DNA of 64,000 nt from the NCBI GenBank assembly GCA_902386205.1, contig CABMIH010000088.1, positions 1 to 64,000 on the forward strand, read 5' to 3'. Below, piece by piece: positions 665-50,520 of the stretch. The first letter of the stretch is position 1. Every line of letters starts with the position of its first letter. This DNA comes from an uncultured archaeon (GTDB lineage: Archaea > Halobacteriota > Methanosarcinia > Methanosarcinales > Methanoperedenaceae). A program made the position numbers and the translations under genes. The notes under the pieces were generated by a model, which was given only the letters and a program-made list of their open reading frames with translations, did not search any database and was not told the origin of the DNA.

Positions 665-3600
665 ATGAAAACCATATTGTTTATTGCACTTATAGTGAGC
701 GGAGTTTTCATATCCGATGTAGCGGCAGGGGAAAACCTTCCGTTTTACAACCTCTCTATCTCATTCGATATTTCAAAGAATCTTCTCAAAGGCGTCTCAA
801 CGATCACCCTTTCAGAAAACAGGGACATGAATATTTCTACCGGTAACCTTGATATCACATCTGTAAAGCTAAACGGATCGCCTCTTGAGCCCCAGATTAA
901 AGATGGGATATTTAATGTAAAAGGCAATGGTACGCTTGAAATTTTTTTTCAGTGTAAGTTTGCAAGAGTAAATGGAAATGAAAACCTTGAAAATGCCGGT
1001 GTAGTCTCATATGATACTATCAGTGATGAGGGGATATCCCTGACAGGAATATGGTATCCTCATATTGAGGGTAGAGCATATTACCATTTGAAGGCGCTCC
1101 TTCCAGAAGGTTTTAGTGCAATCTCCGAAGCGGATGGGATTACTGCCAAGAGTACACCGCAGGGTATAGAATATACTTTCAACTTTCCTCACCCCCTGAA
1201 TAAAATAAACCTCGTTGCAGGTAAATACATGATACGGAAAGAGACCTTTCATGGCGCAGACATTTATGTATATTTTTTTCCCGGTGACATCTCACATGAC
1301 ATTATCGGATATCTTGACGACATCTCACGTGCAGATACTTACATCGAATATACGAAGAAATACCTGAAGATGTATGAGGAACTTATCGGCCCTTACCCGT
1401 ACAAACGGTTCTCTGTTGTTGAGAATGTCCTCCCTACAGGGTATTCAATGCCCACATTTACACTACTGGGCAAAGATGTTATACGTCTTCCATTCATTGT
1501 CAATACATCCCTGGGACATGAGATTCTTCACCAGTGGTTTGGAAATTATGTCTATGATGACTTTGAAAAGGGAAACTGGATAGAGGGGCTTACTACATAC
1601 CAGTCCGACCATCTTTATAAAAAACAGAATGGCGAGGGTGAGCAGTACAGGAAGAAACTCCTCATTGACTATCAGAGCTATGTTATACCTGATAAGGAGA
1701 CTGAACTTGCGGATTTCTTCCAGAGGATGGATTTCGCATCCGGGTCAATTGGCTATGGAAAGGGGACATTGTTGTTCCATATGCTAAATAACGAGATAGG
1801 AGATGATGCATTCTACAGGGGGTTAAGGGAGCTTATCAAAGAAAAGGCATTCCAGGATGCAACATGGGATGATGTAAAAATAGCCTTTGAAAACGCCTCT
1901 GGCAGGAACCTGGAGCGGTTTTTCAACCAGTGGCTTTACAGAAAAGGAGCGATATCAATCGATATAGTAGACCAGAGAGTGACCGTCCTGAATGGCGTTC
2001 CCACAACATCTTTTAAGGTTATCCAGGAAGGGGAGCCATATGAATTTATGCTGCCGCTCAAGATAAATACAGACAAAGGTGAAGTTATAAGGATTTTGAA
2101 TGTTAAAAAGGAAAATGAAACGTTTGAGATCCCTTCAAACGGGACCCCTCAAGATATGGTTTTAGATGGCGACTACGACTTAATGCGCAGACTTTCAGAA
2201 AAAGAATTCCCGCCCGTTATATCAAGGCTCCTGGGAGATGAAAAAAGGCTGATCCTTATCCCTGAAAAAGATAAAGAAAAATATGAGGATTTAATAAATG
2301 TTTTCAAAGGTGAGGGCTTTATCCCAAAGGAAGAAAAGGAAATTAAGGATGAAAATATAACAGCATCTTCCATTCTCGTGTTAGGTTCTGACAGCCCGAT
2401 TCTTAAGAGACTCTTCGGTGGATGGAAAATGCCAGAGCCGGGATTCAGCCTCGCCATAGTCAAGAATCCTCTGAACACATCAAAGGTGGTGGCTGTTGCC
2501 GAAGCAGGCTCAAAGGAGGAGGTTGACCTGGCGTCAAGAAAGATATTTCACTACGGGCAATATTCTTTTATAAGGTTTGAAAAAGGTAAAAACGTAGAGA
2601 ATAGAACAGATGGAACCGAACAGGGGATAAGGGTTAGTTTATACGAGCCTGTGATGGGGATCCAGCCTCAAAAAACAATTAAGCTCGATGAGATCGTTCG
2701 CAATATTTCTGACAAGACTATTATCTATATTGGAGAGACACATACCAACTATGAGGAACATAAGGTGCAGCTTGCGGTTATTATGAATCTCTCTGAGAAG
2801 GGACATAAGTTTGCCATTGGCATGGAGATGTTCCAGAAACCGTTCCAGAAAGCAATTGATGACTATATCGCCGGAAATATAACAGAAAAGGATTTTTTGA
2901 AAAAAACCCAGTATTTCAAGAGATGGGGATATGATTATAATCTTTATAGGGAAATTATTAATTTTGCAAAAGCAAAGAATATCCCTGTCGTAGCCCTTAA
3001 TCTTCGATCAGAGATTATTGATAATGTCACAAAAGGTGGTCTTGACGCCCTTACTGATGAGGACAAAAAACAAATCCCCAGGGATATGGATATGTCGGAT
3101 GAGGATTACAAAAAAAGTCTCAAAGAGATTTTCGACGAGCATGGAAATCAAGGGTTCGGAAACTTTGACTATTTCTACCAGTCCCAGATACTCTGGGATG
3201 AAACCATGGCTCATTCAGTGGATGAATTCCTGAAACATAACCCGGATTATCAAATTGTTGTACTTGCCGGTTTGGGCCATATTATGTATGGTTCGGGTAT
3301 CCCGAAACGGGCATACAGGCTGGATGGTAAAGATTATGCAACGTTGATACAGGGTTCTGAAAGCACTGATGAAAACGTGGGGGATTTTGTACTTTTCCCG
3401 AAACCCATATCGCCGATACCTGCTGTGCAGCTTGGGATTTTCCCTGCGGAAGCAGATGGCAAAGTCAAGATAGTTAATGTTGGAACTGATAGCGTTGCAG
3501 AGAAAGCAGGTCTCAAAAAAGATGATATCTTCATCTCCATTGATGACTGGAAAATCGAGGGCATAGAAGATGTAAGAATCTCTATGTTTGATAAAAAGGA

Positions 3601-8380: not shown

Positions 8381-9538
8381 TTATTCCGAAACCGCCTCAG
8401 CAATACAGTCTTCGGTCGTTGCCAGGATACTCTTCACACCGCAAAGATTGGGAACATACTTATGCGCTTTTCCCGAATTCACCATCATGCATTTGAATCT
8501 CTCGCTTGCGGGTGATACGACCATGCAGGTGTCGCAAAAAACTTTTGCGCCGCTTCTTTCGATGCGCTCTATCAAAAGAGGATGTTTGTCTTTTATAGAG
8601 CGTGAAGTACATACCCATACTTCTTTTTTAACCTTTTTCCCATTCAACAGCCGTGCGAGATTTTCCAGTTCACCAACACTCGCATGTGGACATCCGAACG
8701 CGATCAGGTCGGGTTTGCCTTTTGAATAGATATCTTTTATTTGCTTACCTTCGATAGTTATCTTCTCAGCAGGCGCTTCATATTTCCCGGCTTCAGGAGT
8801 GGCGCCTGAAACATGATACAGCGCCACCGCACCTGATGCGGCCATTGCGGCACCGAGTGATTTTAACTCGTCTTTTGAGGGGGTTGACCTGAGTTTAAAT
8901 AAAGGCACTTTATCACCGACCATATCCCCTACAATATAGCCGAGCGCCCCGTAATCCGAATCATGCAACCCAGACTCGACAGTTACCATGACATCGGGTT
9001 TCCTGTTCTCATCCAGGTGAAAGCCGTAATTTGGCGTTTTTCCGATGAGCGCAGCCGAAAGTGCGCCCGGCCCCCCTTCCCTGTTGGTCCGTGCGCCGAT
9101 AACGGAATTGGCGTACGAGATAGCCGAGGATTCACTCCACGCCACGTGGTCCCCAAAAGCTGCAAGGTTATCAAAGATGACATAGGGCGTGCAGGAACAT
9201 TCGGTTCTTACCCCCAGCGCTTCATATGCCCGGATTATTTTTTCCTGCTTAGCTGCAAAATCCGGGCTTATGCCCATCTCTTTCCAGCATTCCCTGTCCA
9301 TCCCGGCCGGGTTAAGAATAGACGGCACAGCGACCTTTCCCTTCAGGTCTGATATCCATTCAAGACCTGCTTCTCCTATCGTCTTGTATGAAACCCCGGC
9401 TATCTGTGCGCTTTTTATGGAGATAAGCCTGTCCGCGTCATAAATATCGCCCAATGCAGTGAGTATCTCAATCGCTTTCTGGTATGTAGCACCGTGATCT
9501 CCCTTGAGAATATTTTCTTCTTCAGGCGTGAGATACAT
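8381..9538 (-). CDS. Aconitase X catalytic (large) subunit, probable phosphomevalonate dehydratase
   Basis: 385 residues of the AcnX/DUF521 family. It starts MYLTPEEENILKGDHGATY, the family signature. Iron-sulphur and substrate motifs are visible: SCTPYVIFDN, GCPHASVGELENLARLL and FCDTCMVVSP. In archaea the AcnX pair dehydrates 5-phosphomevalonate to trans-anhydromevalonate 5-phosphate in the modified mevalonate route to isoprenoids. The small subunit (DUF126/AcnX_S), often adjacent or fused, is not next to it and must lie elsewhere. The length is normal for a stand-alone large subunit. Confidence 0.88.
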   Translation of the reverse strand: MYLTPEEENILKGDHGATYQKAIEILTALGDIYDADRLISIKSAQIAGVSYKTIGEAGLEWISDLKGKVAVPSILNPAGMDRECWKEMGISPDFAAKQEKIIRAYEALGVRTECSCTPYVIFDNLAAFGDHVAWSESSAISYANSVIGARTNREGGPGALSAALIGKTPNYGFHLDENRKPDVMVTVESGLHDSDYGALGYIVGDMVGDKVPLFKLRSTPSKDELKSLGAAMAASGAVALYHVSGATPEAGKYEAPAEKITIEGKQIKDIYSKGKPDLIAFGCPHASVGELENLARLLNGKKVKKEVWVCTSRSIKDKHPLLIERIERSGAKVFCDTCMVVSPASERFKCMMVNSGKAHKYVPNLCGVKSILATTEDCIAEAVSE

Positions 9539-9567
9539 CTACACCTCAGGAATTCTTGAACAGCATT

Positions 9568-9900
9568 TCAATAAGCCCTGGGGCGAGTGTTAGAGAAATT
9601 GCTGTTTAATACCATCTTTACGATGTCCCCGTGTTTCTCTTTCAGGGAGTAGAAATTATGTTCTTTTGATAAATAGATACTCAGTATCCCGAGTCTTGAG
9701 TGCATTTGTCCGACCATGGCCGAGACACCTTTGTAATTTATATCAAAACCGCGCTTTTTAAGGTAATCGTATATCTCGCAGGTATTGTAACTTTTAGCTT
9801 CTAAGAAAAGGTTTAAAAGGCATTTCCTGATCCCGATCTTGTCCTTTAAGAGATATTTTACCAGTCTGGTCCTGACTCCTTCCTCCGCATTATCAGTCAT
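9568..9900 (-). CDS. DUF2551 winged-helix-like protein
   Basis: 110 residues from ATG 9900. This start is chosen because GGTGAT sits just before it, whereas ATG 9915 has no Shine-Dalgarno. The sequence resembles the methanogen DUF2551 family: TRLVKYLLKDKIGIRKCLLNLFLEAKSYNTCEIYDYLKKRGFDI would be a winged helix-turn-helix, followed by a short basic wing (LSKEHNFYSLKEKHGD). A regulatory role is inferred from the fold only. It ends 29 nt upstream of acnX and may be co-transcribed with it. Confidence 0.65.
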   Translation of the reverse strand: MTDNAEEGVRTRLVKYLLKDKIGIRKCLLNLFLEAKSYNTCEIYDYLKKRGFDINYKGVSAMVGQMHSRLGILSIYLSKEHNFYSLKEKHGDIVKMVLNSNFSNTRPRAY

Positions 9901-9999
9901 TGGATCACCCAACATAATAATGCTTTCAGGTTTCTTAAATGTATGGCTTCCCTATGGGAAAAAATATCCTGAAAATAAGAATTCCGATCATAGGTTTCA

Positions 10000-10071
10000 T
10001 GCGCCGGTCGGGACTCGAACCCGAGTTTAAGCGTTGGCAACGCTCAGTGATAACCGCTACACTACCGGCGC
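10000..10071 (-). tRNA. tRNA-Gly (GCC)
   Basis: On the minus strand the 72-nt sequence folds as a complete tRNA. The acceptor is GCGCCGG/CCGGCGC with discriminator A at 10000. The anticodon stem GAGCG/CGCTT encloses the loop TTGCCAA (anticodon GCC). The T-arm is TCGGG-TTCGAGT-CCCGA. CCA is not encoded. It lies alone between the DUF2551 gene and the suf operon. Confidence 0.95.
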
Positions 10072-10448
10072 GAACCGGAGCCGAAGGGCATTCCCTAAAT
10101 AATCTAATCCGTATTACATGAGCGAGGCAAGATAATATCTTATCCCTTTTTTAAATCACTTTTGTAATATGGTAGGTATAGGGGTACTCGCTTAATTATT
10201 CTACTACTTAAAAAAGATATGGGTATCGCACTGATCATCAAAGACTATTTGGTAGACATGAACACCAGTGGAAATGGCAGGATAAGCCAGAGCTTATTAT
10301 AGGTATAACAAGAGAAGGACTCGTGCCGGCGCGTGTTAAAAAAAAGAATAGAAATATATAAGCTGACAAACAAGAAATAAACGTTATGGGGTAAGAAGAT
10401 GAGGGTTAGAGCTATTGCAGCCCAAGAATCCACATTGAAAGGTTAGAA
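10072..10448 (+). promoter_or_regulatory. Upstream region of sufCB with TATA-like box
   Basis: The 377-nt gap between tRNA-Gly and sufC has no convincing gene. An archaeal TATA-like box, gaaatatataag, lies at 10351-10362, so transcription could begin around 10385. Between that point and sufC there is a 15-codon frame (ATG 10399, stop 10444-10446) that ends two bases before the sufC ATG. It could be a leader peptide or chance. A 62-codon frame on the opposite strand has no supporting features. Confidence 0.4.
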
Positions 10449-39552: not shown

Positions 39553-40200
39553 ATGGGAATATTTGATGATCTGTTTAAGTCAAAAGAGCCGAATATAGAC
39601 GAGATGAAGGCGAAGAAAAATGTTAAAGGACTGGTTAAAGCATTGCAATACAAAAAGAATCCCGAGATTCAAATATATGTAGCTCGGACTCTTGGAGAGA
39701 TAGGAGATGCGAGAGCAGTTAAACCCCTCATTCAAGTTCTGTTAAAGGATGAAAATCCAACTATTCGAAAGACTGTGGCTGAGGCTCTTGGAGATATAGA
39801 AGATAGGGACTACAAATCATCCAGCATAGCCGCAACAAAGGCTCTTAAAAGGGCCATTAGAGGTATAGAGTACGCAGATGCAGAAGAGCTAGAAAAGTCT
39901 CTTGAAAAATTAGGAGATGCAAGAGCTGTGGAAGAGGCTCTTGGAGAAATAACAGAAGTAAGGGCGGTTGGCCCTCTCATTCAAGCTCTATTAAATGATG
40001 AAGATTCTGTTGTTCGTGGGTCTGCGGCTGAGGCTCTTGGAAAGATAGGAGATATAAGAGCAAGAGAAGCACTTATTGAAGCTAAAGAAGATGAAAATCA
40101 GTATGTTAAAGAGGCTGCACAAAAGGCGGTGGATAAAATCAACTTATGCTTTACAAAAAAGTATTTAATAGAGTCCGCGCTGAAATCCTCATTTCGTTGA
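39553..40200 (+). CDS. HEAT-repeat (PBS-lyase-like) protein
   Basis: 215 residues. Repeats of the EZ-HEAT type are clear: VARTLGEIGDARAVKPLIQVLLKDENPTIRKTVAEALGDI, and later GEITEVRAVGPLIQALLNDEDSVVRGSAAEALGKIGDIRA and EALIEAKEDENQYVKEAAQKAV. Such proteins form curved scaffolds for binding other proteins. It opens the gene run that continues with the AAA ATPase 68 nt later and could act as an adaptor for it. AAAGGAGA precedes the start. Confidence 0.85.
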   Translation: MGIFDDLFKSKEPNIDEMKAKKNVKGLVKALQYKKNPEIQIYVARTLGEIGDARAVKPLIQVLLKDENPTIRKTVAEALGDIEDRDYKSSSIAATKALKRAIRGIEYADAEELEKSLEKLGDARAVEEALGEITEVRAVGPLIQALLNDEDSVVRGSAAEALGKIGDIRAREALIEAKEDENQYVKEAAQKAVDKINLCFTKKYLIESALKSSFR

Positions 40201-40268: not shown

Positions 40269-41540
40269 ATGCAACTAAAAGTAATGGACGTGCCCTGGAA
40301 TCTTATAGGTGGTAAGGAAATCATAATTAACGCCGATAACAAAGAATTTGAAGCAGGGAATGTAGTAAAAATTTGGAAGGAAGGAAAAATCACAGCTGCC
40401 AAAATTAATAAGATAGATCAAAGCGGTAAAAATACAATACGTCTGGATAAACATTTGCGGGGGAATCTTTCAGTTGAGATTGGAGATAATGTGAATGTTG
40501 AAAAACTTGACAGGATAACAGATGCTGAAAAGGTACAAGTCTCAAGTAATGTCGAAATGGATGAAACCAAAGTAAAAGTCTTTCTGAATGGTTCAATTGT
40601 ATGCGAAGATAACAATGAGCATTTCCCGAAAGAGGGGGTGGTAATCCATATATCCAAAACATTGCCAAAAGGAATAGTCAAAGTTGTCCAATCAACCGAA
40701 ATTCAGATAACGCCTCTGAATGCAAGATTGAAAACCGTTTCACACACAGACAATAAATCCTTTGATATATCAACCGAGATTCCTAATGTTAGTTATATTG
40801 ATGTTGGTGGTCTCGATAATGTGAAAAGACTGTTGACTGAAAACATAGTTTATGCCATGAAAAAAGCAGATGTATATAAAAAAATCGGCTACAGGCCAAT
40901 TAAAGGGATAATGCTTTATGGCCCGCCGGGTACAGGCAAAACATTGATTGCAAAAGCAACTGCTTTTGAGTCAGCGGCCAATTTCATATTTGTCCCGAGC
41001 TCAAAATTGAAGAACATGTATTATGGTGAATCTGAAAGAAAGATGCGCGAGATCTTCATAAAAGCTAAAGAGCATACCCCTTGTATAATATTTTTTGATG
41101 AAATTGATGCTATAGCGGAAGAAAGAACAGATTGGAAAATTACAATCGTCAATCAGTTACTGGTATTGATGGATGAAATTGCAGACATGGACATATTTGT
41201 CATAGGTGCAACCAATATGATTCATCTCATTGACCATGCGCTTCTCAGGCCAGGCAGATTCATACCAATAGAAGTGCCTCCTCCAGATAAAATTGCAAGA
41301 GAACAGATATTTAGAGTCCACCTAACTAACAACTTAATAGATGATGTTGAATTCAAAGAGCTCGCTTCAGCTACCGATAATTTGACGGGGGCGGAAATTT
41401 CGGCCATTTGCAACAGGGCTAAGATGGAGGCAATGCGCGAGATGGATTTCTCACCGGAATCTAAACTTGAAATAAAACATCTTCGGGAAGCTATCAAAAA
41501 TCAGATTGATAAGAAACCTCCTTCAACTATGTATGTATAG
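40269..41540 (+). CDS. Cdc48-like single-ring AAA ATPase with HbYX-type C-terminus
   Basis: 423 residues. Residues 1-80 resemble the Cdc48 N-domain double-psi barrel and 85-165 the second N-subdomain. One AAA module follows, with VGGLDNVKRLLTENI, Walker A GPPGTGKT at residue ~218, the pore-loop region FIFVPSSKLKNMYYGESERKMREIF, Walker B IIFFDEIDAIAEER, sensor VIGATNMI and arginine-finger LLRPGRF. A normal Cdc48 has two AAA rings of ~800 residues in all; the second is missing. The last residues MYV match the HbYX motif by which PAN and archaeal Cdc48 dock on the 20S proteasome. Twelve nt separate it from the GrpE-like gene. Confidence 0.9.
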   Translation: MQLKVMDVPWNLIGGKEIIINADNKEFEAGNVVKIWKEGKITAAKINKIDQSGKNTIRLDKHLRGNLSVEIGDNVNVEKLDRITDAEKVQVSSNVEMDETKVKVFLNGSIVCEDNNEHFPKEGVVIHISKTLPKGIVKVVQSTEIQITPLNARLKTVSHTDNKSFDISTEIPNVSYIDVGGLDNVKRLLTENIVYAMKKADVYKKIGYRPIKGIMLYGPPGTGKTLIAKATAFESAANFIFVPSSKLKNMYYGESERKMREIFIKAKEHTPCIIFFDEIDAIAEERTDWKITIVNQLLVLMDEIADMDIFVIGATNMIHLIDHALLRPGRFIPIEVPPPDKIAREQIFRVHLTNNLIDDVEFKELASATDNLTGAEISAICNRAKMEAMREMDFSPESKLEIKHLREAIKNQIDKKPPSTMYV

Positions 41541-41551
41541 GAGATAAAATC

Positions 41552-42046
41552 ATGCAAAATTACCCTTTGCTTGCCGAAAAATTGAAAAAAGGATATGAAC
41601 AATTAGATCAGTTCTCAATAGGATTAATAAAATTAAAGCGGGACTTCGAAGAACTTTTACCTCAAATGGAAAGTTATCGTCAAATAATAGAAACTGATAA
41701 AAGAAATTATTCAGATTCGTATGATAGACTAACTCTCAGGTTGATCGATATTTTGGATGACCTCCAATCGCAGAATCTTAAAGGGATGGATACAGATGCT
41801 AAATTCGAAGGCTTTATTATTGCAAGATTGGAGGATGTGGTGAGAAGAGAAAGCGTCTTGCCTTTTAATGCTGAATTCGGAGAATTATTTAATTCTGAAA
41901 AACATGAAGTCATCAAAAGTATTGTGGATAACGAGAAACCTGATGGTACTATCATAAAAATACTTAAACCGGGATACTTACGAAATCAAAAAATAATAAG
42001 GAGAGCAGAGGTAATTGTAACCCGCAGGGAGGTTGATGAGATATGA
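41552..42046 (+). CDS. GrpE-like nucleotide exchange factor
   Basis: 164 residues. An N-terminal helical part (LDQFSIGLIKLKRDFEELLPQMESYRQI) is followed by the GrpE head: LTLRLIDILDDLQSQNLKG, RRESVLPFNAEFGELFNSEKHEVIK, PDGTIIKILKPGYLRNQKII and RRAEVIVTR. This tracks canonical GrpE (FDPxxHEA, GTVxxVLxxGYxxxxRxxRPAxVxV) in order and spacing. The long dimerising coiled coil of typical GrpE is shorter. It overlaps the Hsp70-like gene by 4 nt, so it is presumably that protein's ADP-release factor. Confidence 0.8.
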   Translation: MQNYPLLAEKLKKGYEQLDQFSIGLIKLKRDFEELLPQMESYRQIIETDKRNYSDSYDRLTLRLIDILDDLQSQNLKGMDTDAKFEGFIIARLEDVVRRESVLPFNAEFGELFNSEKHEVIKSIVDNEKPDGTIIKILKPGYLRNQKIIRRAEVIVTRREVDEI

Positions 42047-44316
42047 TGTACCTTGGAATAGATTTTGGAACATCGAATTCCGGCATAGCTTTTTTTGATG
42101 ATAAGAGAAAAATGCTTGAAGTAGTTAATCCTGAAATTGACAAGATGCCAGGTGGTCGTGTCTATCCATCAGTTGTTGCCTTTGATAGAGAGGGAAACAT
42201 GATAGCAGCGGGCTGGTATACCCGGAGTTATGGCCAGGCATTCCCGAAGCTTGTTGTTGATCAGGTGAAACGCTGGATTGGTAAACCCTATGTTGATGCA
42301 ATTACAGATCCAAGATTGAGGAATCTGGGATATAATATAATCGAGAATGAGGGGAAAGCTTTAGTGGAAGTTGGAAGAAGAACGTATACCGCCGAAGAGA
42401 TAGTTACGTATATACTTAAACATCTGGTTGAAGAAGCGAGAGCGTATCTAAAAAACAAGGATATCGATATCAGAAAAGAAAAAGTAACAGTAATAGTATC
42501 CCATCCTGCTTATTATCTGCAAAATCAAGTGGAAGCCATAAGAGAATCCATTAATAAAATGAAAGAACAGGTCAATAACATAGAAATAGGGGATGTGAAA
42601 GTAATACCTGAACCAGTGGCTTCAGTATGTGCTGCCATGTATTGGGGGAAACTGAGCAAGAATGACAGATATGTAATTGTAATTGATGAGGGTGCAGGAA
42701 CACTTGACACCATGCTTGTAGATATGCAACAGGTAAATCCTGGAGAGGAGAAGGAAATAGAAGCGAGGGGAATAACTATAGGGGGGCATGCAATGCTTGG
42801 TGGCTCAAATATGGACAATTATATTGTGGAGTGGGTACTGGACGAATTAAGGAAAGATGAGAACATCAACCGCGATGAGATTATGAATATTAACATTCGA
42901 GAATTGAGAATCGAAGCGGAGTCCGCAAAAATAGATATTTCGGAAGGGAGAACAAAAGTTGCCCAGATAAAAGTTCCGGGTTTTGCCAGATATTTTGAAC
43001 TATCTGAAAGTCTATTGGATTCTCTTGTTTCTCCAGTAATTAGGGATTGTAAAAAAACTATTTTAGAATCTTTGGAGGAAATAGAAAAAAATTATAAAAT
43101 CCAGAGAGGAGAAATAACCAAAGTCATACTTGTTGGGGGCCCTACACGGATGAAAAATTTCCGGCGTATGGTAAATGATATCTTTAAAGCAGAAATTGTG
43201 GACATTAATCCCATGGAGTGCGTAGCCGTAGGCGCATCTGTCAGTCCTGATATGCGTTATAAAGTCCCGGCAGATCGCACATATGGATTACTCAAGAAAG
43301 AAGACAAAAGTGAAATGCTCATTGAAGTTGTGCAGAAAGATACGCCCCTTCCGAAAAGTGTTGTATTACCCTGGAAAGTTGAGGCTTTTGAGGGAAAGAT
43401 ACCAATTGAGGTTGCACAGGTACTTGAAAAAGATAATACAGAAATGGTCTGTATGAAGATGGGAAAATATGAGTTTGCAGCATCTCCTTTTGAAAAAACC
43501 TATTTCATCGTCTTTAATCTTGATGAAGAAAGAAAGGTGGAGGTCATAGTGACAAGTTCTAAAAACAGGGCAGAAGACTATAGCCAAGGAATAATCAAGG
43601 AAATACAGAGAGGGGATTTTAGATTAGAATTTATACGCGATATAGTTCCCTGCGTTTTACGGACAACACTCAAAGATACTGACCAAAATCCATTATGGGA
43701 AGTCTTCTTTAAAAATGCCCCAGGATTGTATACAAAACTCAAAGCAACAGATAAAATCGTAAAGGACTGCAATAGGATTATCGAATTCGGTATTGAAGAA
43801 TCTTTATTGAAAAATTTGTTACAGGAAAAGACAGATTTAGAAAACATATTAGATAAAATAATGCAAGATATAAACTCTGGATTGGAGCAGATGCCAAAAG
43901 ATGAAACTGTGAACAAAGAAACGGACAAGGTGATGAAGCAATTGGTAGATAATATAGTGAGAAGCGATGAATTTTTAAAACTGTCAATAAAATTGGATCC
44001 TTTAGAGAGAAGGATAGACGAGTTAAAGGATTATATGGTATATGATAAAAATAAAATAAGAACTTTAATAAATAAGATCTCAGATAAAAAAACTGAAGCT
44101 TCAGTCAAAATGCAAACATTCAAGAAAATCCTACCTGAAAATACTATAAAAGAAATAGAAAACTTGTTGGACGAACTCGATCGGATACAAATATTTCTGG
44201 AAAACAAGAACGAAATTATGGTGAACTCAGTAGATGGAGAAATGTACAGAGAGGGAGAGCGAAAGGAACAAACACTCAAAAGTATTATTGACCAAAGGCT
44301 TGTGCAGGATAAATAA
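42043..44316 (+). CDS. Divergent Hsp70-like protein (first of two)
   Basis: 757 residues, longer than DnaK. The nucleotide-binding domain starts MMYLGIDFGTSNSGIAFFDD, with VIVSHPAYYLQNQVEAIRESI, IPEPVASVCAAMYWG, the second phosphate loop VIVIDEGAGTLDTMLVD (normally DLGGGT) and the adenosine motif VILVGGPTRMKNFRRMV. After ~residue 400 it has no recognisable DnaK substrate domain; the last ~200 residues are charged helices (for example ENTIKEIENLLDELDRIQIF), possibly coiled coil. It is coupled by a 4-nt overlap to the GrpE-like gene and followed 13 nt later by a membrane GrpE-like gene. Confidence 0.88.
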   Translation: MMYLGIDFGTSNSGIAFFDDKRKMLEVVNPEIDKMPGGRVYPSVVAFDREGNMIAAGWYTRSYGQAFPKLVVDQVKRWIGKPYVDAITDPRLRNLGYNIIENEGKALVEVGRRTYTAEEIVTYILKHLVEEARAYLKNKDIDIRKEKVTVIVSHPAYYLQNQVEAIRESINKMKEQVNNIEIGDVKVIPEPVASVCAAMYWGKLSKNDRYVIVIDEGAGTLDTMLVDMQQVNPGEEKEIEARGITIGGHAMLGGSNMDNYIVEWVLDELRKDENINRDEIMNINIRELRIEAESAKIDISEGRTKVAQIKVPGFARYFELSESLLDSLVSPVIRDCKKTILESLEEIEKNYKIQRGEITKVILVGGPTRMKNFRRMVNDIFKAEIVDINPMECVAVGASVSPDMRYKVPADRTYGLLKKEDKSEMLIEVVQKDTPLPKSVVLPWKVEAFEGKIPIEVAQVLEKDNTEMVCMKMGKYEFAASPFEKTYFIVFNLDEERKVEVIVTSSKNRAEDYSQGIIKEIQRGDFRLEFIRDIVPCVLRTTLKDTDQNPLWEVFFKNAPGLYTKLKATDKIVKDCNRIIEFGIEESLLKNLLQEKTDLENILDKIMQDINSGLEQMPKDETVNKETDKVMKQLVDNIVRSDEFLKLSIKLDPLERRIDELKDYMVYDKNKIRTLINKISDKKTEASVKMQTFKKILPENTIKEIENLLDELDRIQIFLENKNEIMVNSVDGEMYREGERKEQTLKSIIDQRLVQDK

Positions 44317-44329
44317 ATGGAGGAAGAGT

Positions 44330-45238
44330 ATGAAAAAAGATGATAAAAATAATATTTTTAGGAAAAACCTTCAGGAATATATCAGGTTTCCGGGTATACT
44401 TATAACCGGAATTTTCTTGTTTTTTTACTCGGTCTTACGCTTTAATCACTGGGCTTTGATAGATATTATGTTCCTATCTGGAATAGGAATTGTTATTATC
44501 CTCCTCGGGATAATCATGTATTATCATTCTCCGGCAGCATCAATGACTGCGGCCGGAATAGGATTATCGGGCATAGCTTTAGGAATTTTTTATCTTTACG
44601 ACCGTAAAGTAACTGATATTATAGCAATTTCATACTCCTTTGGTGTAATCATGCTTTTATTGAGTGTTATAAGTGTAACTAAAAATAAAACTTCAGCAAT
44701 AATAACAAAGACTTACAATTTACCTATGCAAAATCCAGGCATTCTGAAAATGGATACAGTCGAGGACAGATATACAAAAACAGTTTCTTCTGGATTACAG
44801 AATTTACAGGATATTATAATTGGCTATAGGGATGTTATAGCAGAAGAAAAATCAAAAATCAAAGCTTCCGTGGAAAAGCAATTACTGGACATTTTAGAGT
44901 TAAATGATGGTTTTGAAAGTTATATCAACAAATATAAAGACCAGGAGCAGAAACCAGAAGGTTTTATCCAGATTAAGAAAATGTATGATTTCGTGCAGGA
45001 GACATTAGACAACGAAAATGTCCATCCAATAGAAGTCCAGATAGGTGAAAGTATCGATGAAAAAAGACATGAGGTCATCAAAGTAACCAACGAACCTCCA
45101 GCAGATCTTTCTGGAAAACCAAGCATAGTACAGGTTAGACGAAAAGGGTTTTTCATAAATTCGCCCGTTCCCGGGAAAGTTCTGAGACGTACCAGGGTCG
45201 AAGTTGAATGGAAATCGGATAATTATTATAAAAAATGA
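44330..45238 (+). CDS. Membrane protein with C-terminal GrpE-like domain
   Basis: 302 residues from ATG 44330, with GGAGGAAGAG just before it; the frame from 44234 overlaps the Hsp70 gene and is rejected. Four hydrophobic helices occupy about residues 20-116. The remaining cytoplasmic part resembles GrpE: LLDILELNDGFESYINKYK, YDFVQETLDNENVHPIEVQIGE, EKRHEVIKVTNEPPAD, IVQVRRKGFFINSPVPGK and VLRRTRVEVEW. The HEVIK and RRxxVxV stations are shared with the soluble GrpE-like protein at 41552. A membrane-tethered GrpE domain would recruit an Hsp70 to the membrane; I know of no described example in archaea. Confidence 0.75.
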   Translation: MKKDDKNNIFRKNLQEYIRFPGILITGIFLFFYSVLRFNHWALIDIMFLSGIGIVIILLGIIMYYHSPAASMTAAGIGLSGIALGIFYLYDRKVTDIIAISYSFGVIMLLLSVISVTKNKTSAIITKTYNLPMQNPGILKMDTVEDRYTKTVSSGLQNLQDIIIGYRDVIAEEKSKIKASVEKQLLDILELNDGFESYINKYKDQEQKPEGFIQIKKMYDFVQETLDNENVHPIEVQIGESIDEKRHEVIKVTNEPPADLSGKPSIVQVRRKGFFINSPVPGKVLRRTRVEVEWKSDNYYKK

Positions 45239-45241
45239 TCA

Positions 45242-45307
45242 TATGAGGATGCTGAAGAGATACCTCTTGAAAGGAAAAAGTTTGAAGAAATAATATTTAA
45301 CATTTGA
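45242..45307 (+). pseudogene. Short Hsp70-gene relic
   Basis: The frame reads YEDAEEIPLERKKFEEIIFNI and then TGA. It matches EDVEDIPLERKKLEEIISPI of the Hsp70 gene at 46499-46561, and the nucleotide sequence agrees at most positions. It has no start and no flanking similarity. This is a scrap left from a duplication or rearrangement of hsp70 sequence. The rest of the 269-nt gap holds the promoter of the second Hsp70 gene. Confidence 0.75.
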
Positions 45308-45507: not shown

Positions 45508-47643
45508 ATGACGGGAATCGATTTGGGTACATCCCAATCCGCCGGATGCTATCCTTATGGCAGAGATGAAAAAAATAATACCAGATATAAACAAGTTGAG
45601 AATGAATTGGCAGGTACAATAACGGAAGTGACAAATGAAAAATCACATCCTTCTTTTGTTCAATATGACAGGAATGCGAAAGCCATTAACACAGGAATCC
45701 GGGGTAAGCATCTTGCCAGTAGTTTCCCAAAATCAACAATATACGACAGTAAACGACTTATTGGAAGGCGATTTGATGATCCGGAAGTGCAAAAGTTCAA
45801 GAAAATACTGGATGAAAGAGGCCATTATGAGATATGTGCAGACAAAAAAGGAGAAGTTGCAATAAAAATTGGAGACAAAGAGATATCACCTAAAGAAGTA
45901 GCCTCTGAAATTATTGTAGAAATATTAAAGGATGCATTTCAGCAGAAATGCGACTTGATAGAAAATCTGGTCATTTCTGTGCCTGCATACTTCACTGAAA
46001 TTCAGAAATCGAGAACAAAAGAAGCTGCAATTCTGGCTATCGAGAAATTGCAGAACACAGAAAATGCCGGACGCATTAAGATGGATGTTAGAGGTAAAAC
46101 TGCGGAAAGTGTGAAAGGCATAGAACTTATTTCCGAGCCATCTGCAGCGTTAATAACTTACATGGCCAGGACCGGGCTGAATGAAGTAACAAATGATAAA
46201 TACATTCTTGTTTTTGATCTTGGCGCAGGCACGCTTGATATTTCCATCGGAACAGCTATTAAAATAAAAAAACCGAGGGGGGGAGAAGAATATATTTTGA
46301 ATGTTACAACTACTCATGGCGATACAGCTCTTGGCGGCAGGGATATGGATCAAAGGATAATAGAGTGGGTTAAACCTGAACTTCAAAGAAAAAATATCCC
46401 AATTGACAATAAAATAATGTTAGATTTAATGGATAAGGTGGAAAAAGCAAAGATAACGCTTTCTTTCAAAGAGAAAGCAGTTATCAGGCTTCTTGATGAG
46501 GATGTTGAGGATATACCTCTGGAAAGGAAAAAATTGGAAGAGATAATTTCTCCGATATTGAACCGGTGCAGAGAGGTAATTAGAGAAGCAATGGAGAAAG
46601 CAAAGATAAAAAAAGATGATGTTGCTGAGGTTGTTATGGTCGGCGGCCCAACATTCATGCCATCTGTCCGAAGAGTTGTTGAGGAAGAACTGGGAACAAA
46701 AATACGTGACGTTGCAGGATGGAATCCGATGCTATGTGTTGCAGAAGGTGCAGCAAGACATGGAAAAGGAGAAGGAATTGTTGAGGAGCCGATACCTTTC
46801 GACTATTATGTTGCTCCGGCGATATTTGATCTTGAGGACAAATGCAACAATGTTGGCACTAAAATAGCTTCTGTAGGAGACCCTGCAAATGTTGATCGCG
46901 ATGCCGAGATCTTTGTACCTCTGTATATAAATAATCAATCAGTGATTGAATCAGGAGCTAATTTTGAAATTGTTAAACTTCGCATGGTAAGACACATGGG
47001 TGGAAATTTTACATGCATACAAGAGATTTCGCTGTCAGTGGCAGCCTTGTTTGTTGATCGTCAGGACGAACACTGCAAAATCAAAAAAATAAGATATTCC
47101 GGCAAAAATGTGAATGGTGAATTTCTTTTCAGGTATGAAAAAATAAAAATCAATTTTAGAATAAACAATGAAGGTCTCATGATGAAACCTGGCTTTATTC
47201 AAACCAGGAACGGAAATAGTATAGGATACCCTGATCTTCCCGTAGAAGATAAAGGTCATCTCGAACTCATGGACTGGCCAACATTTTTTGATAGGAATTG
47301 GGATAAATTGGCAAGAGAATTTCTCTCATATATAGATAATAATCCGTATGTAAAATGTCCTCATTGCAATACAAAGAATAAAATGGAAGCCAAATATTGC
47401 GTTAATTGCAATAATCCAATTATTAGTGCCGGTGACCTGCCTCTGGATTTTTTAAAACTCATGGGAAAAGAAAGAATTGAACAGGCAAACAGGCTAAATC
47501 GTAACGCCAGAACTAAAGATTTGATTGAACAACTGGAGAAAGCAATTATTGAAGCAAATACGGACACTCCTACAAAGAAGGCAAAACTCGTAGGTGCTAT
47601 TATTGCTCTGGAAAAAGACCTGGAAATCAATAGCAATAGATGA
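45508..47643 (+). CDS. Hsp70-like protein with C-terminal zinc ribbon (second of two)
   Basis: 711 residues. The nucleotide-binding domain begins MTGIDLGTSQSAGCYPYG and includes LVISVPAYFTEIQKSRTKEAA, ISEPSAALITYMAR, the phosphate-2 motif ILVFDLGAGTLDISIG, GDTALGGRDMDQRIIEWV and VVMVGGPTFMPSVRRVVEEE. Identity to DnaK is clearer than in the first Hsp70. The substrate region from ~residue 420 is not typical, and Cys617, Cys620, Cys631 and Cys634 (CPHC ... CVNC) form a zinc ribbon, followed by a helical tail. AGGAGGT precedes the start. The J-like membrane gene begins 18 nt downstream. Confidence 0.9.
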   Translation: MTGIDLGTSQSAGCYPYGRDEKNNTRYKQVENELAGTITEVTNEKSHPSFVQYDRNAKAINTGIRGKHLASSFPKSTIYDSKRLIGRRFDDPEVQKFKKILDERGHYEICADKKGEVAIKIGDKEISPKEVASEIIVEILKDAFQQKCDLIENLVISVPAYFTEIQKSRTKEAAILAIEKLQNTENAGRIKMDVRGKTAESVKGIELISEPSAALITYMARTGLNEVTNDKYILVFDLGAGTLDISIGTAIKIKKPRGGEEYILNVTTTHGDTALGGRDMDQRIIEWVKPELQRKNIPIDNKIMLDLMDKVEKAKITLSFKEKAVIRLLDEDVEDIPLERKKLEEIISPILNRCREVIREAMEKAKIKKDDVAEVVMVGGPTFMPSVRRVVEEELGTKIRDVAGWNPMLCVAEGAARHGKGEGIVEEPIPFDYYVAPAIFDLEDKCNNVGTKIASVGDPANVDRDAEIFVPLYINNQSVIESGANFEIVKLRMVRHMGGNFTCIQEISLSVAALFVDRQDEHCKIKKIRYSGKNVNGEFLFRYEKIKINFRINNEGLMMKPGFIQTRNGNSIGYPDLPVEDKGHLELMDWPTFFDRNWDKLAREFLSYIDNNPYVKCPHCNTKNKMEAKYCVNCNNPIISAGDLPLDFLKLMGKERIEQANRLNRNARTKDLIEQLEKAIIEANTDTPTKKAKLVGAIIALEKDLEINSNR

Positions 47644-47661: not shown

Positions 47662-48741
47662 ATGTTGCCGATATTCCTTAAACTTTTTGATGAGGAACTA
47701 ATATTTGATGGTGACAAAGTTAGTGATGAAAAAGTTATTCCACTATACAAAATTTTTGATTTTCAGACATCTTTATATTTTTGTGTTTTGAGTGGAACAG
47801 ACAGAGCAAGAAATTGGTATCTTCTTAATAATAGCAATGATATAAAAGAGGATGACACATTTGATGAACTAAAGTTCATATATTCCAATAAGGGAAGCTT
47901 CGATGTATATTCATCAAATGGAGATCTAAAGCCGATTAATGATATAAAAAAATATTTCACTGAATTAGATGACAAAGTCAAAGATTGCGAGATACTTGGA
48001 ATAAAAAAAGATTGTGCAAATGAAGAAATAATTCTAAAGGCATGGGGGGCACAGAGACGAATCTTTTCCTATGAGAGGGATTTGCATTATATATTTAATA
48101 ATGCCAGAGATAGGCTATTAAGAGAAACCAAGAATCTTGGATTTGTGGAAATTTCGACTGATTTGTCAATAGATGTCTATTTTGATGAGGATTTCATAGA
48201 AACCATACCGTATAATATTAATTCCCAGCCAATCCGCTCCAAAGGAGGGGAACATCAAATAGTACTGAAAAAGGACTCCCATGAAATTGGTTCTGCTACA
48301 GTTTATATTAATCCTGGAAGTAAAGAAAAAGTAAATATACCTATATCGATTAGAACAAATAGTAGAACCGAGCTTGAAAAGAAAGTTCAAAATCTGAAAA
48401 ATGAGAACCAGAATCTGAAGAATGAGAACAATAAGTTCAGACGGCAAGTTGAAAATATCATAAATGGGGATCAAATTCCTGCGCCCTCCAAAATAACTTT
48501 ATCTTTATTGGTGCTTCTTGCCATCATGTCTGCAATAGACATTATATCCCCTTTCCCTTTGTTATTTATATTATACATCATAAGTTTCATCGGTGTCTTT
48601 TATAAGAGACGAAAAATGGGATCTGGATTGGCTATGTTGTCAGGATTTCTCTCCCTTCCGGGTGGTACTTTCATATTCCTATTGGGCTGTCTTTTGATGT
48701 TTTTAGGGTGGAAAGAATATTCAGTACTCAAAACTTCTTAG
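47662..48741 (+). CDS. Membrane protein with degenerate J-like domain
   Basis: 359 residues. Around residues 108-155 the sequence DCEILGIKKDCANEEIILKAW, then RRIFSYERD and FNNARDRLL, lines up with helices I-IV of a J-domain (YEILGIxxxAxxxEIKKAY...). The catalytic HPD tripeptide is missing, its place being occupied by FSYERD. A β-rich segment (TDLSIDVYFDEDFIETIPY) that could be PEGA-like follows, then a coiled coil with the repeat KNENQNLKNENN, then C-terminal hydrophobic helices. It stands directly after the second Hsp70 gene. It probably docks or regulates Hsp70 at the membrane, without stimulating ATPase in the standard way (inference). Confidence 0.55.
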   Translation: MLPIFLKLFDEELIFDGDKVSDEKVIPLYKIFDFQTSLYFCVLSGTDRARNWYLLNNSNDIKEDDTFDELKFIYSNKGSFDVYSSNGDLKPINDIKKYFTELDDKVKDCEILGIKKDCANEEIILKAWGAQRRIFSYERDLHYIFNNARDRLLRETKNLGFVEISTDLSIDVYFDEDFIETIPYNINSQPIRSKGGEHQIVLKKDSHEIGSATVYINPGSKEKVNIPISIRTNSRTELEKKVQNLKNENQNLKNENNKFRRQVENIINGDQIPAPSKITLSLLVLLAIMSAIDIISPFPLLFILYIISFIGVFYKRRKMGSGLAMLSGFLSLPGGTFIFLLGCLLMFLGWKEYSVLKTS

Positions 48742-48747
48742 GAGTTT

Positions 48748-50520
48748 ATGGATATGTTATTAAAAATTGTTATTCACAAAAACATATCATTTTTAATTTT
48801 TTTGATTATAATTTCAATTTTTTCGCTTATTCCCGCAAATGGTGCAACCGGAGACATATTAATAAACAATGAAAATAAGATTTTAGATATCGGGATACCA
48901 TGGACATTGCAAGAGGGTTATGAGGTTACAATTACTGATCTGGACCAGTTAAGAGTAATTATTTCCCTCTCAAAAAATGGGAAAGAGATACATCGTAAGG
49001 GTGAATATAAAACCTATACCTATGAATACAGAAATCCGGCCAATGTAAGCCAGTTGATTCTTCGTTTTCGTATCGTTGACGTTAATGATAATAAAATTCA
49101 ACTTGGAAATATATATCAATATTCTGATGGAAGTATTTTATCCGATATCCCTGCATCGATACCTGCGATCATAGACTCGCCCGCGCCTACTCCTGCTCCA
49201 ATAGCCACAAATACTATTACCCTTCGACAGTGGGCAGTCAATGCAATTGCAAGCAGCGAGTACACCTCAACCTCCTGGTCGGCAAAGCAGGCAACAGGTG
49301 CACCGGATACACTCAGTTATGGCGACATTCGAACAGCATGGGCAACTTTGAACGAAGACGAATCAATCCAATGGATAGAGCTGGATTACTCGGCGCCGGT
49401 CTATGCAACTGATGTCAATGTGCGCGAAACTTTTAACCCTGGAGCACTTATCAGGATCGAGCTTAAGGATAGCACTGGAGTATATCATACTGTGTGGAGA
49501 GGAACCGATCCAAATATTGGAAGTAAAAAAATAAGCTGGTCAAATATATCCTTTGAACAAACAATTTATCCCACGAGCACGATAAAGTTGTATATTGATA
49601 CAAATCTCATTCCTGGCTGGCAAGAAATCGATGCAGTGGAATTGGTCGGTATCTCAGCAGGCACAACGCCGGAACCTACAATCGCCACGATATCACCTTC
49701 TATCCGGGCGAACCAATTTTCAGATGATTTTAGCGGTTCGAAGCTCAGCCCTGGATGGACCGTGATCAACAATAACGATGATTCCGACGTCTTCCTGACA
49801 GGAACCGGATACCTGCAGATGAAAGCTTCACCTAAGAACGGCGGCTCAGATTATTCCAACCGTTCTAACTACAATGCCTTAAGAATATTACAGCCCGTAA
49901 GCGGCGACTGGATCATTGAGACAAGAATGGATTTTTCCCCTACTGATAATTATCAGGGTGCTGGAATAATGATATGTTTTGAGGATATTCCAGAATCTAA
50001 CACCTGCAACAGAATTGCAGAAAGGGCGTTTTATCCTAATGAAGGAGGATCAGTCATTAAGTCCGTCGGTAATTATAAGGCTTATACAAATAGTGTTAGT
50101 TACTTCAGGGTCATGAAGGAAGGAACAAGTTACATGGGCTGGTATAGTTCGGATGGGGTGAATTGGATCTTAAATGGTAAAAGCACCAAGAGCCGAACTG
50201 TAAAATATGCGGGTCTTTTCACAGTACGACAACCCTGGGACGGTAATACAGATGTCTATTCAGTCGCTGATTATGACTACTTTAATATCACGGAATTAAG
50301 TCCAAATCAAAAGCCTGCTGTTACACCAATGGTGGCAGTTACCACAGGACCCTCCCCAACTTTACAACCTACAAAAACAGCGATAAAATCCATAGAAACA
50401 GGAACTCCATATCCTGCTCCCCCACATCCCGAACCTGAAGGGGGATCTCCTGTCCGTATTTTGGCCTTAATGCCGATGGCTTTTTTATTGGTCCAATATA
50501 TAAAAAAGTTTAATAAATAA
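48748..50520 (+). CDS. Large surface protein with adhesin-like β-domains
   Basis: 590 residues. A signal peptide (ISFLIFLIIISIFSLIPANGA) precedes an S-layer-like small domain (ILDIGIPWTLQEGYEVTITDLD). Next comes a Pro/Ala linker, then a discoidin-like domain (QWAVNAIASSEYTSTSWSAK, IQWIELDYSAPVYATDV). A second linker leads to a concanavalin/DUF1349-like domain (FSDDFSGSKLSPGWTVINN, GDWIIETRMDF, YMGWYSSDGVNWI). A Pro/Thr stalk ends in a C-terminal hydrophobic helix with a Lys/Asn tail. The layout fits a membrane-anchored extracellular glycan-binding protein. Its gene lies 6 nt after the J-like gene, so it is in the same operon. Confidence 0.75.
   Translation: MDMLLKIVIHKNISFLIFLIIISIFSLIPANGATGDILINNENKILDIGIPWTLQEGYEVTITDLDQLRVIISLSKNGKEIHRKGEYKTYTYEYRNPANVSQLILRFRIVDVNDNKIQLGNIYQYSDGSILSDIPASIPAIIDSPAPTPAPIATNTITLRQWAVNAIASSEYTSTSWSAKQATGAPDTLSYGDIRTAWATLNEDESIQWIELDYSAPVYATDVNVRETFNPGALIRIELKDSTGVYHTVWRGTDPNIGSKKISWSNISFEQTIYPTSTIKLYIDTNLIPGWQEIDAVELVGISAGTTPEPTIATISPSIRANQFSDDFSGSKLSPGWTVINNNDDSDVFLTGTGYLQMKASPKNGGSDYSNRSNYNALRILQPVSGDWIIETRMDFSPTDNYQGAGIMICFEDIPESNTCNRIAERAFYPNEGGSVIKSVGNYKAYTNSVSYFRVMKEGTSYMGWYSSDGVNWILNGKSTKSRTVKYAGLFTVRQPWDGNTDVYSVADYDYFNITELSPNQKPAVTPMVAVTTGPSPTLQPTKTAIKSIETGTPYPAPPHPEPEGGSPVRILALMPMAFLLVQYIKKFNK

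Follow-up and report, generated by a model that had tools for sequence, protein, structure and literature searches.

A GrpE-like protein with a predicted four-helix membrane anchor in an archaeal cluster of divergent Hsp70 genes

The stretch of Methanoperedenaceae DNA analyzed here (64,000 nucleotides of contig CABMIH010000088.1, hereafter the window) contained a tight cluster of chaperone-related genes on the forward strand. In order, these encoded a HEAT-repeat protein (starting at 39553), an AAA ATPase, a soluble GrpE-like protein, an Hsp70 (Hsp70a), a second GrpE-like protein with a hydrophobic N-terminal part (the membrane GrpE), and a second Hsp70 (Hsp70b) (Table 1). Hsp70a and Hsp70b scored 153.5 and 212.4 bits, respectively, with PF00012. 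When they were aligned with the DnaK of the same genome, both were found to have kept the phosphate and adenosine motifs, and the sequences diverged past the ATPase domain. The short relic preceding Hsp70b matches part of that gene and is likely to be what remains of a former tandem Hsp70 copy. The coiled-coil protein encoded next is a candidate further member of the cluster. A J domain seen by eye in this protein (EILGIKKDCANEEI) was rejected: it scored no better than shuffled sequence and was absent from the DnaJ search. In the adjoining protein at 48748-50520, a concanavalin-like domain (GH43_C2) was recognized, and there was a weak match to an S-layer model. A separate locus in the same genome had the order thermosome-grpE-dnaK, with a standard GrpE of 153.5 bits and a thermosome named by eye from its sequence. 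The cluster in the window is therefore additional to a canonical grpE-dnaK locus and is probably specialized.

Table 1. Features of the chaperone cluster and of the membrane GrpE gene (positions are those of the window)
Feature	Position	Strand	Description or evidence
AAA ATPase	40269..41540	+	423 aa; CDC48-type N domain and one AAA module
Soluble GrpE-like protein	41552..42046	+	164 aa; PF01025, 68.9 bits
Hsp70a	42043..44316	+	757 aa; DnaK-type ATPase domain, divergent C-terminal part; 4-bp overlap with soluble GrpE gene
Shine-Dalgarno GGAGG, membrane GrpE gene	44319..44323	+	strong; 6 nt before ATG at 44330
Membrane-anchored GrpE-like protein	44330..45238	+	302 aa; ORF, hydropathy, Pfam, predicted fold
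TM1, predicted	44381..44437	+	residues 18-36; Kyte-Doolittle mean 1.85
TM2, predicted	44459..44515	+	residues 44-62; Kyte-Doolittle mean 2.67
TM3, predicted, weakest of four	44534..44590	+	residues 69-87; Kyte-Doolittle mean 1.63; octanol sum 0.0
TM4, predicted	44618..44674	+	residues 97-115; Kyte-Doolittle mean 2.31
GrpE domain	44798..45205	+	residues 157-292; one long and one short helix plus beta domain; Pfam PF01025 and predicted fold
52-bp relic	45243..45294	+	between membrane GrpE and Hsp70b; 87% identical to 46496-46547 within Hsp70b
Hsp70b	45508..47643	+	711 aa; zinc-ribbon-like motif near C-terminus
Coiled-coil protein	47662..48741	+	C-terminal hydrophobic helices

The preliminary description of this DNA had divided the membrane GrpE into about 116 N-terminal residues forming four hydrophobic helices and a GrpE-like C-terminal part, and both halves of this description held up. 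Hydropathy analysis placed four hydrophobic segments in the N-terminal region. There were five lysine or arginine residues on the N-terminal tail, and the stretch right behind TM4 was also positively charged, in agreement with the prediction that both ends of the protein are cytosolic. In the C-terminal part, PF01025 was the only Pfam family to score above its cut-off in the protein (48 bits against a cut-off of 25.8, E 1.4e-12), and the domain scored 49.5 bits in a genome-wide GrpE search. It fell below the NCBIfam cut-off for canonical GrpE equivalogs (best 27.5 bits vs 194). The stations HEVIK, GF, and RR-x-x-V were retained, and the soluble GrpE-like protein upstream, itself a PF01025 member, indeed shared HEVIK and RR-x-x-V as had been noted. 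The membrane GrpE was very diverged, with an end branch of 5.4 in a tree of GrpE domains, and insertions interrupted its beta domain ahead of VLRR and between HEVIK and the strand that follows it.

Structure prediction pointed to the same family. The AlphaFold model of residues 140-302 had a pLDDT of 91.2 and consisted of two helices, the first of them 62 residues long, and six strands. In a Foldseek search of the PDB with this model the only confident matches were 11 GrpE chains, from E. coli, Thermus, Geobacillus, Mycobacterium, and human mitochondria (probability 1.00, E ≤ 3.1e-4, TM-score 0.42-0.66 by query length); the next match had a probability of 0.15. The alignment behind the model comprised 20 GrpE relatives from viral contigs and the soluble GrpE of the window, so the model is biased toward this outcome and depends on the sequence result, though it does show a confident fit of the sequence to the GrpE fold. 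Neither of the two outcomes that the preliminary description had named as counting against it, a fold unlike the GrpE beta domain or the lack of any GrpE hit in profile searches, was observed. A full-length model built from a two-sequence alignment was set aside (pLDDT 40.7).

A search for the same fusion in other genomes succeeded. Among the extra GrpE copies retrieved from the order was one in a genome of another family (locus L040), where the gene order was a 428-aa AAA protein, a 308-aa GrpE with four hydrophobic segments, a 742-aa Hsp70, and a 462-aa protein (1705-3093, reverse strand) with a DnaJ-like domain that lacked HPD (DnaJ, 25.6 bits). The AAA protein was 41% identical to that of the window, and the Hsp70 was 30% identical to Hsp70a. 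There was no soluble GrpE in this cluster, the membrane-anchored protein (54.6 bits for GrpE) being its only one. Profile searches with the membrane GrpE and, separately, with Hsp70a found the same two of the 238 genomes of the class and no others, and no further genome with either protein came from 394 genomes sampled evenly across the phylum. Pattern scans of genome and viral contigs and tblastn searches of plasmids and phages, which can detect only fairly close relatives, found no relative. The searches were deep within the phylum and consisted of pattern scans beyond it, so membrane GrpE proteins may also exist in bacteria. The architecture is therefore genuine and rare, and in both cases known it goes with its own Hsp70, a co-occurrence seen in two genomes (n = 2).

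The GrpE domain of the L040 protein was a better match to the soluble GrpE of the window than to its membrane GrpE, and tree support for grouping all three was weak (46/91). The two copies may have arisen by duplication or by separate capture, between which the long branches of the tree do not discriminate.

The anchor could be assigned to a family in one of the two proteins. That of L040 belonged to DUF7139 (PF23600; 40.3 bits against a cut-off of 30, and 62 bits with a methanogen profile), a four-TM archaeal family encoded by 93 of the 295 genomes sampled across the phylum. The anchor in the window matched no Pfam family, DUF7139 included, and aligned with a similar layout to a custom profile that included L040 (9.5 bits). 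The two anchors probably share an origin, although the window anchor is too diverged for proof: its score was barely above the highest value (8.4 bits) reached by 300 segment-wise shuffles. DUF7139 proteins in these genomes differ from the L040 protein in carrying tails other than GrpE: disordered with a possible zinc finger, CHAD-like, or short and helical. Because the tails are so varied, the DUF7139 anchor seems to be a module for membrane attachment that can be reused. In two methanogen examples (L128 and L132), the tail behind the four-TM anchor resembled a CHAD domain by eye.

The reading that we consider fairly probable is that the protein acts as a GrpE-type nucleotide exchange factor, tethered to the cytoplasmic membrane through its four-helix anchor, for the divergent Hsp70s encoded beside it. 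The anchor would be inserted in the membrane with the N-terminus and the GrpE domain facing the cytosol. The protein would most likely form a GrpE-like dimer through the long helix (residues about 141-202), and its beta domain would open the ATPase cleft of Hsp70a, and perhaps of Hsp70b. ADP, and hence the client, would then be released at the membrane, beside the CDC48-like AAA unfoldase encoded in the cluster. From the anatomy of the protein and its neighbors we infer, in line with the earlier proposal, that the anchor brings Hsp70 cycling to the membrane. The proximity of the CDC48-like gene suggests that the clients are membrane proteins, or membrane-located proteins awaiting unfolding, which would be consistent with a role in membrane-protein quality control. 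The upstream soluble GrpE-like protein may act on the same Hsp70 in the cytosol or pair with the membrane copy in mixed dimers. In favor of this reading are the GrpE homology and predicted fold, the four hydrophobic segments with their flanking charges, the two neighboring Hsp70 genes with their nucleotide-binding motifs, the related cluster in L040, and the separate canonical locus. Counting against it are the divergence and insertions of the GrpE domain, the GrpE-based alignment behind the model, the co-occurrence in two genomes, the better match of the L040 GrpE domain to the soluble copy, and the weak tree support.

The main rival to exchange at the membrane is that the GrpE fold serves as a docking module, recruiting Hsp70a to the membrane with no exchange activity of its own, and that exchange is left to the soluble GrpE-like protein. 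The fast divergence of the membrane copy and the insertions in its beta domain fit such a role, since exchange activity could be lost in so altered a protein, and its soluble neighbor was nearer to GrpE (68.9 vs 48 bits). However, the membrane copy has kept the conserved stations, and the cluster in L040 has no soluble partner to which exchange could be assigned, so this explanation appears unlikely. A far less probable alternative is that the hydrophobic segments form a soluble hydrophobic domain and no anchor, or that the fusion is an error of assembly or start site. TM3 is indeed weak, and the window anchor has no significant family match. On the other hand, the frame is unbroken and the gene has a strong ribosome-binding site of its own, and a chance or assembly join is unlikely because an independent genome, L040, has the same layout with an anchor that matches a four-TM family. 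A longer frame exists from 44234 but overlaps the end of Hsp70a. The fusion of four hydrophobic segments to GrpE is confirmed as real. Slightly less probable still is a role of the cluster in anti-virus defence, with Hsp70 cycling at the membrane setting off the response: the distribution of the cluster is rare and patchy and the AAA protein matched the PADLOC IetA models (118.9 bits), but such matches are expected for any AAA protein of this type, this one scored far better as CDC48 (275.6 bits) and fell under the cut-off for an IetA-type protein (NCBIfam IteA, 113.1 bits vs 510), and the other cluster proteins checked had no convincing PADLOC match.

GrpE assists the Hsp70 chaperone by resetting it and is ordinarily a soluble protein. 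The protein in the window resembles GrpE and Mge1 in its domain, its predicted fold, and its pairing with Hsp70 genes; it differs in its predicted integral four-TM N-terminal anchor, in its strong divergence and the insertions in its beta domain, in being additional to the canonical grpE of the same genome, and in having divergent Hsp70s as partners. In the import motor of mitochondria, Hsp70, Mge1, and Pam18/Pam16 act at the inner membrane. The likeness there would be the cycling of Hsp70 with a GrpE at a membrane, whereas Mge1 is not embedded in the membrane and no import machinery was seen in the cluster of the window.

The closest working analogue is Snl1 of yeast. This BAG-domain protein, anchored in the membrane of the ER, was described in 2014 as the only Hsp70 exchange factor known to associate with a membrane (PMC3962485). 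Both place an Hsp70 exchange factor on an N-terminal membrane anchor with the exchange domain in the cytosol, as predicted for the protein in the window. The BAG domain, however, is unrelated to GrpE, and Snl1 is eukaryotic and has one N-terminal transmembrane region rather than four helices. GrpE is regarded as the only type of exchange factor of bacterial Hsp70 (PMC4753570), and no description of a membrane-anchored GrpE was found in the papers searched. It is an evenly balanced possibility that this is the first membrane-integral GrpE, part of a dedicated archaeal membrane-tethered Hsp70 machine with its own Hsp70, AAA unfoldase, and membrane-bound exchange factor, in which an archaeal four-TM anchor module was joined to GrpE in convergence with Snl1. 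If so, prokaryotes too would locate the release step of Hsp70 at the membrane, by a route other than that of Snl1. This raises the question of whether exchange fixed at the membrane steers Hsp70 clients there, perhaps to the CDC48-like unfoldase.

Extra GrpE-Hsp70 pairs of other kinds were also found in the order. A second, separate family of such pairs (L047, L048, L054, L058, and related loci) accounted for 14 loci in the tree of GrpE domains. In one genome family among these, GrpE had a C-terminal extension of about 500 aa, coiled-coil in appearance. The terminal stretch of the L047 Hsp70 resembled ubiquitin (PF00240; at 23.5 bits slightly below the cut-off), and L054 was similar. Adjoining the pair in L054 was a protein (9200-10381, forward strand) with, by eye, a J-like domain that lacked HPD. 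In another family of the order (L041, 7787-12490), a divergent GrpE was followed by two Hsp70s, the second of which had a C-terminal von Willebrand factor A domain.
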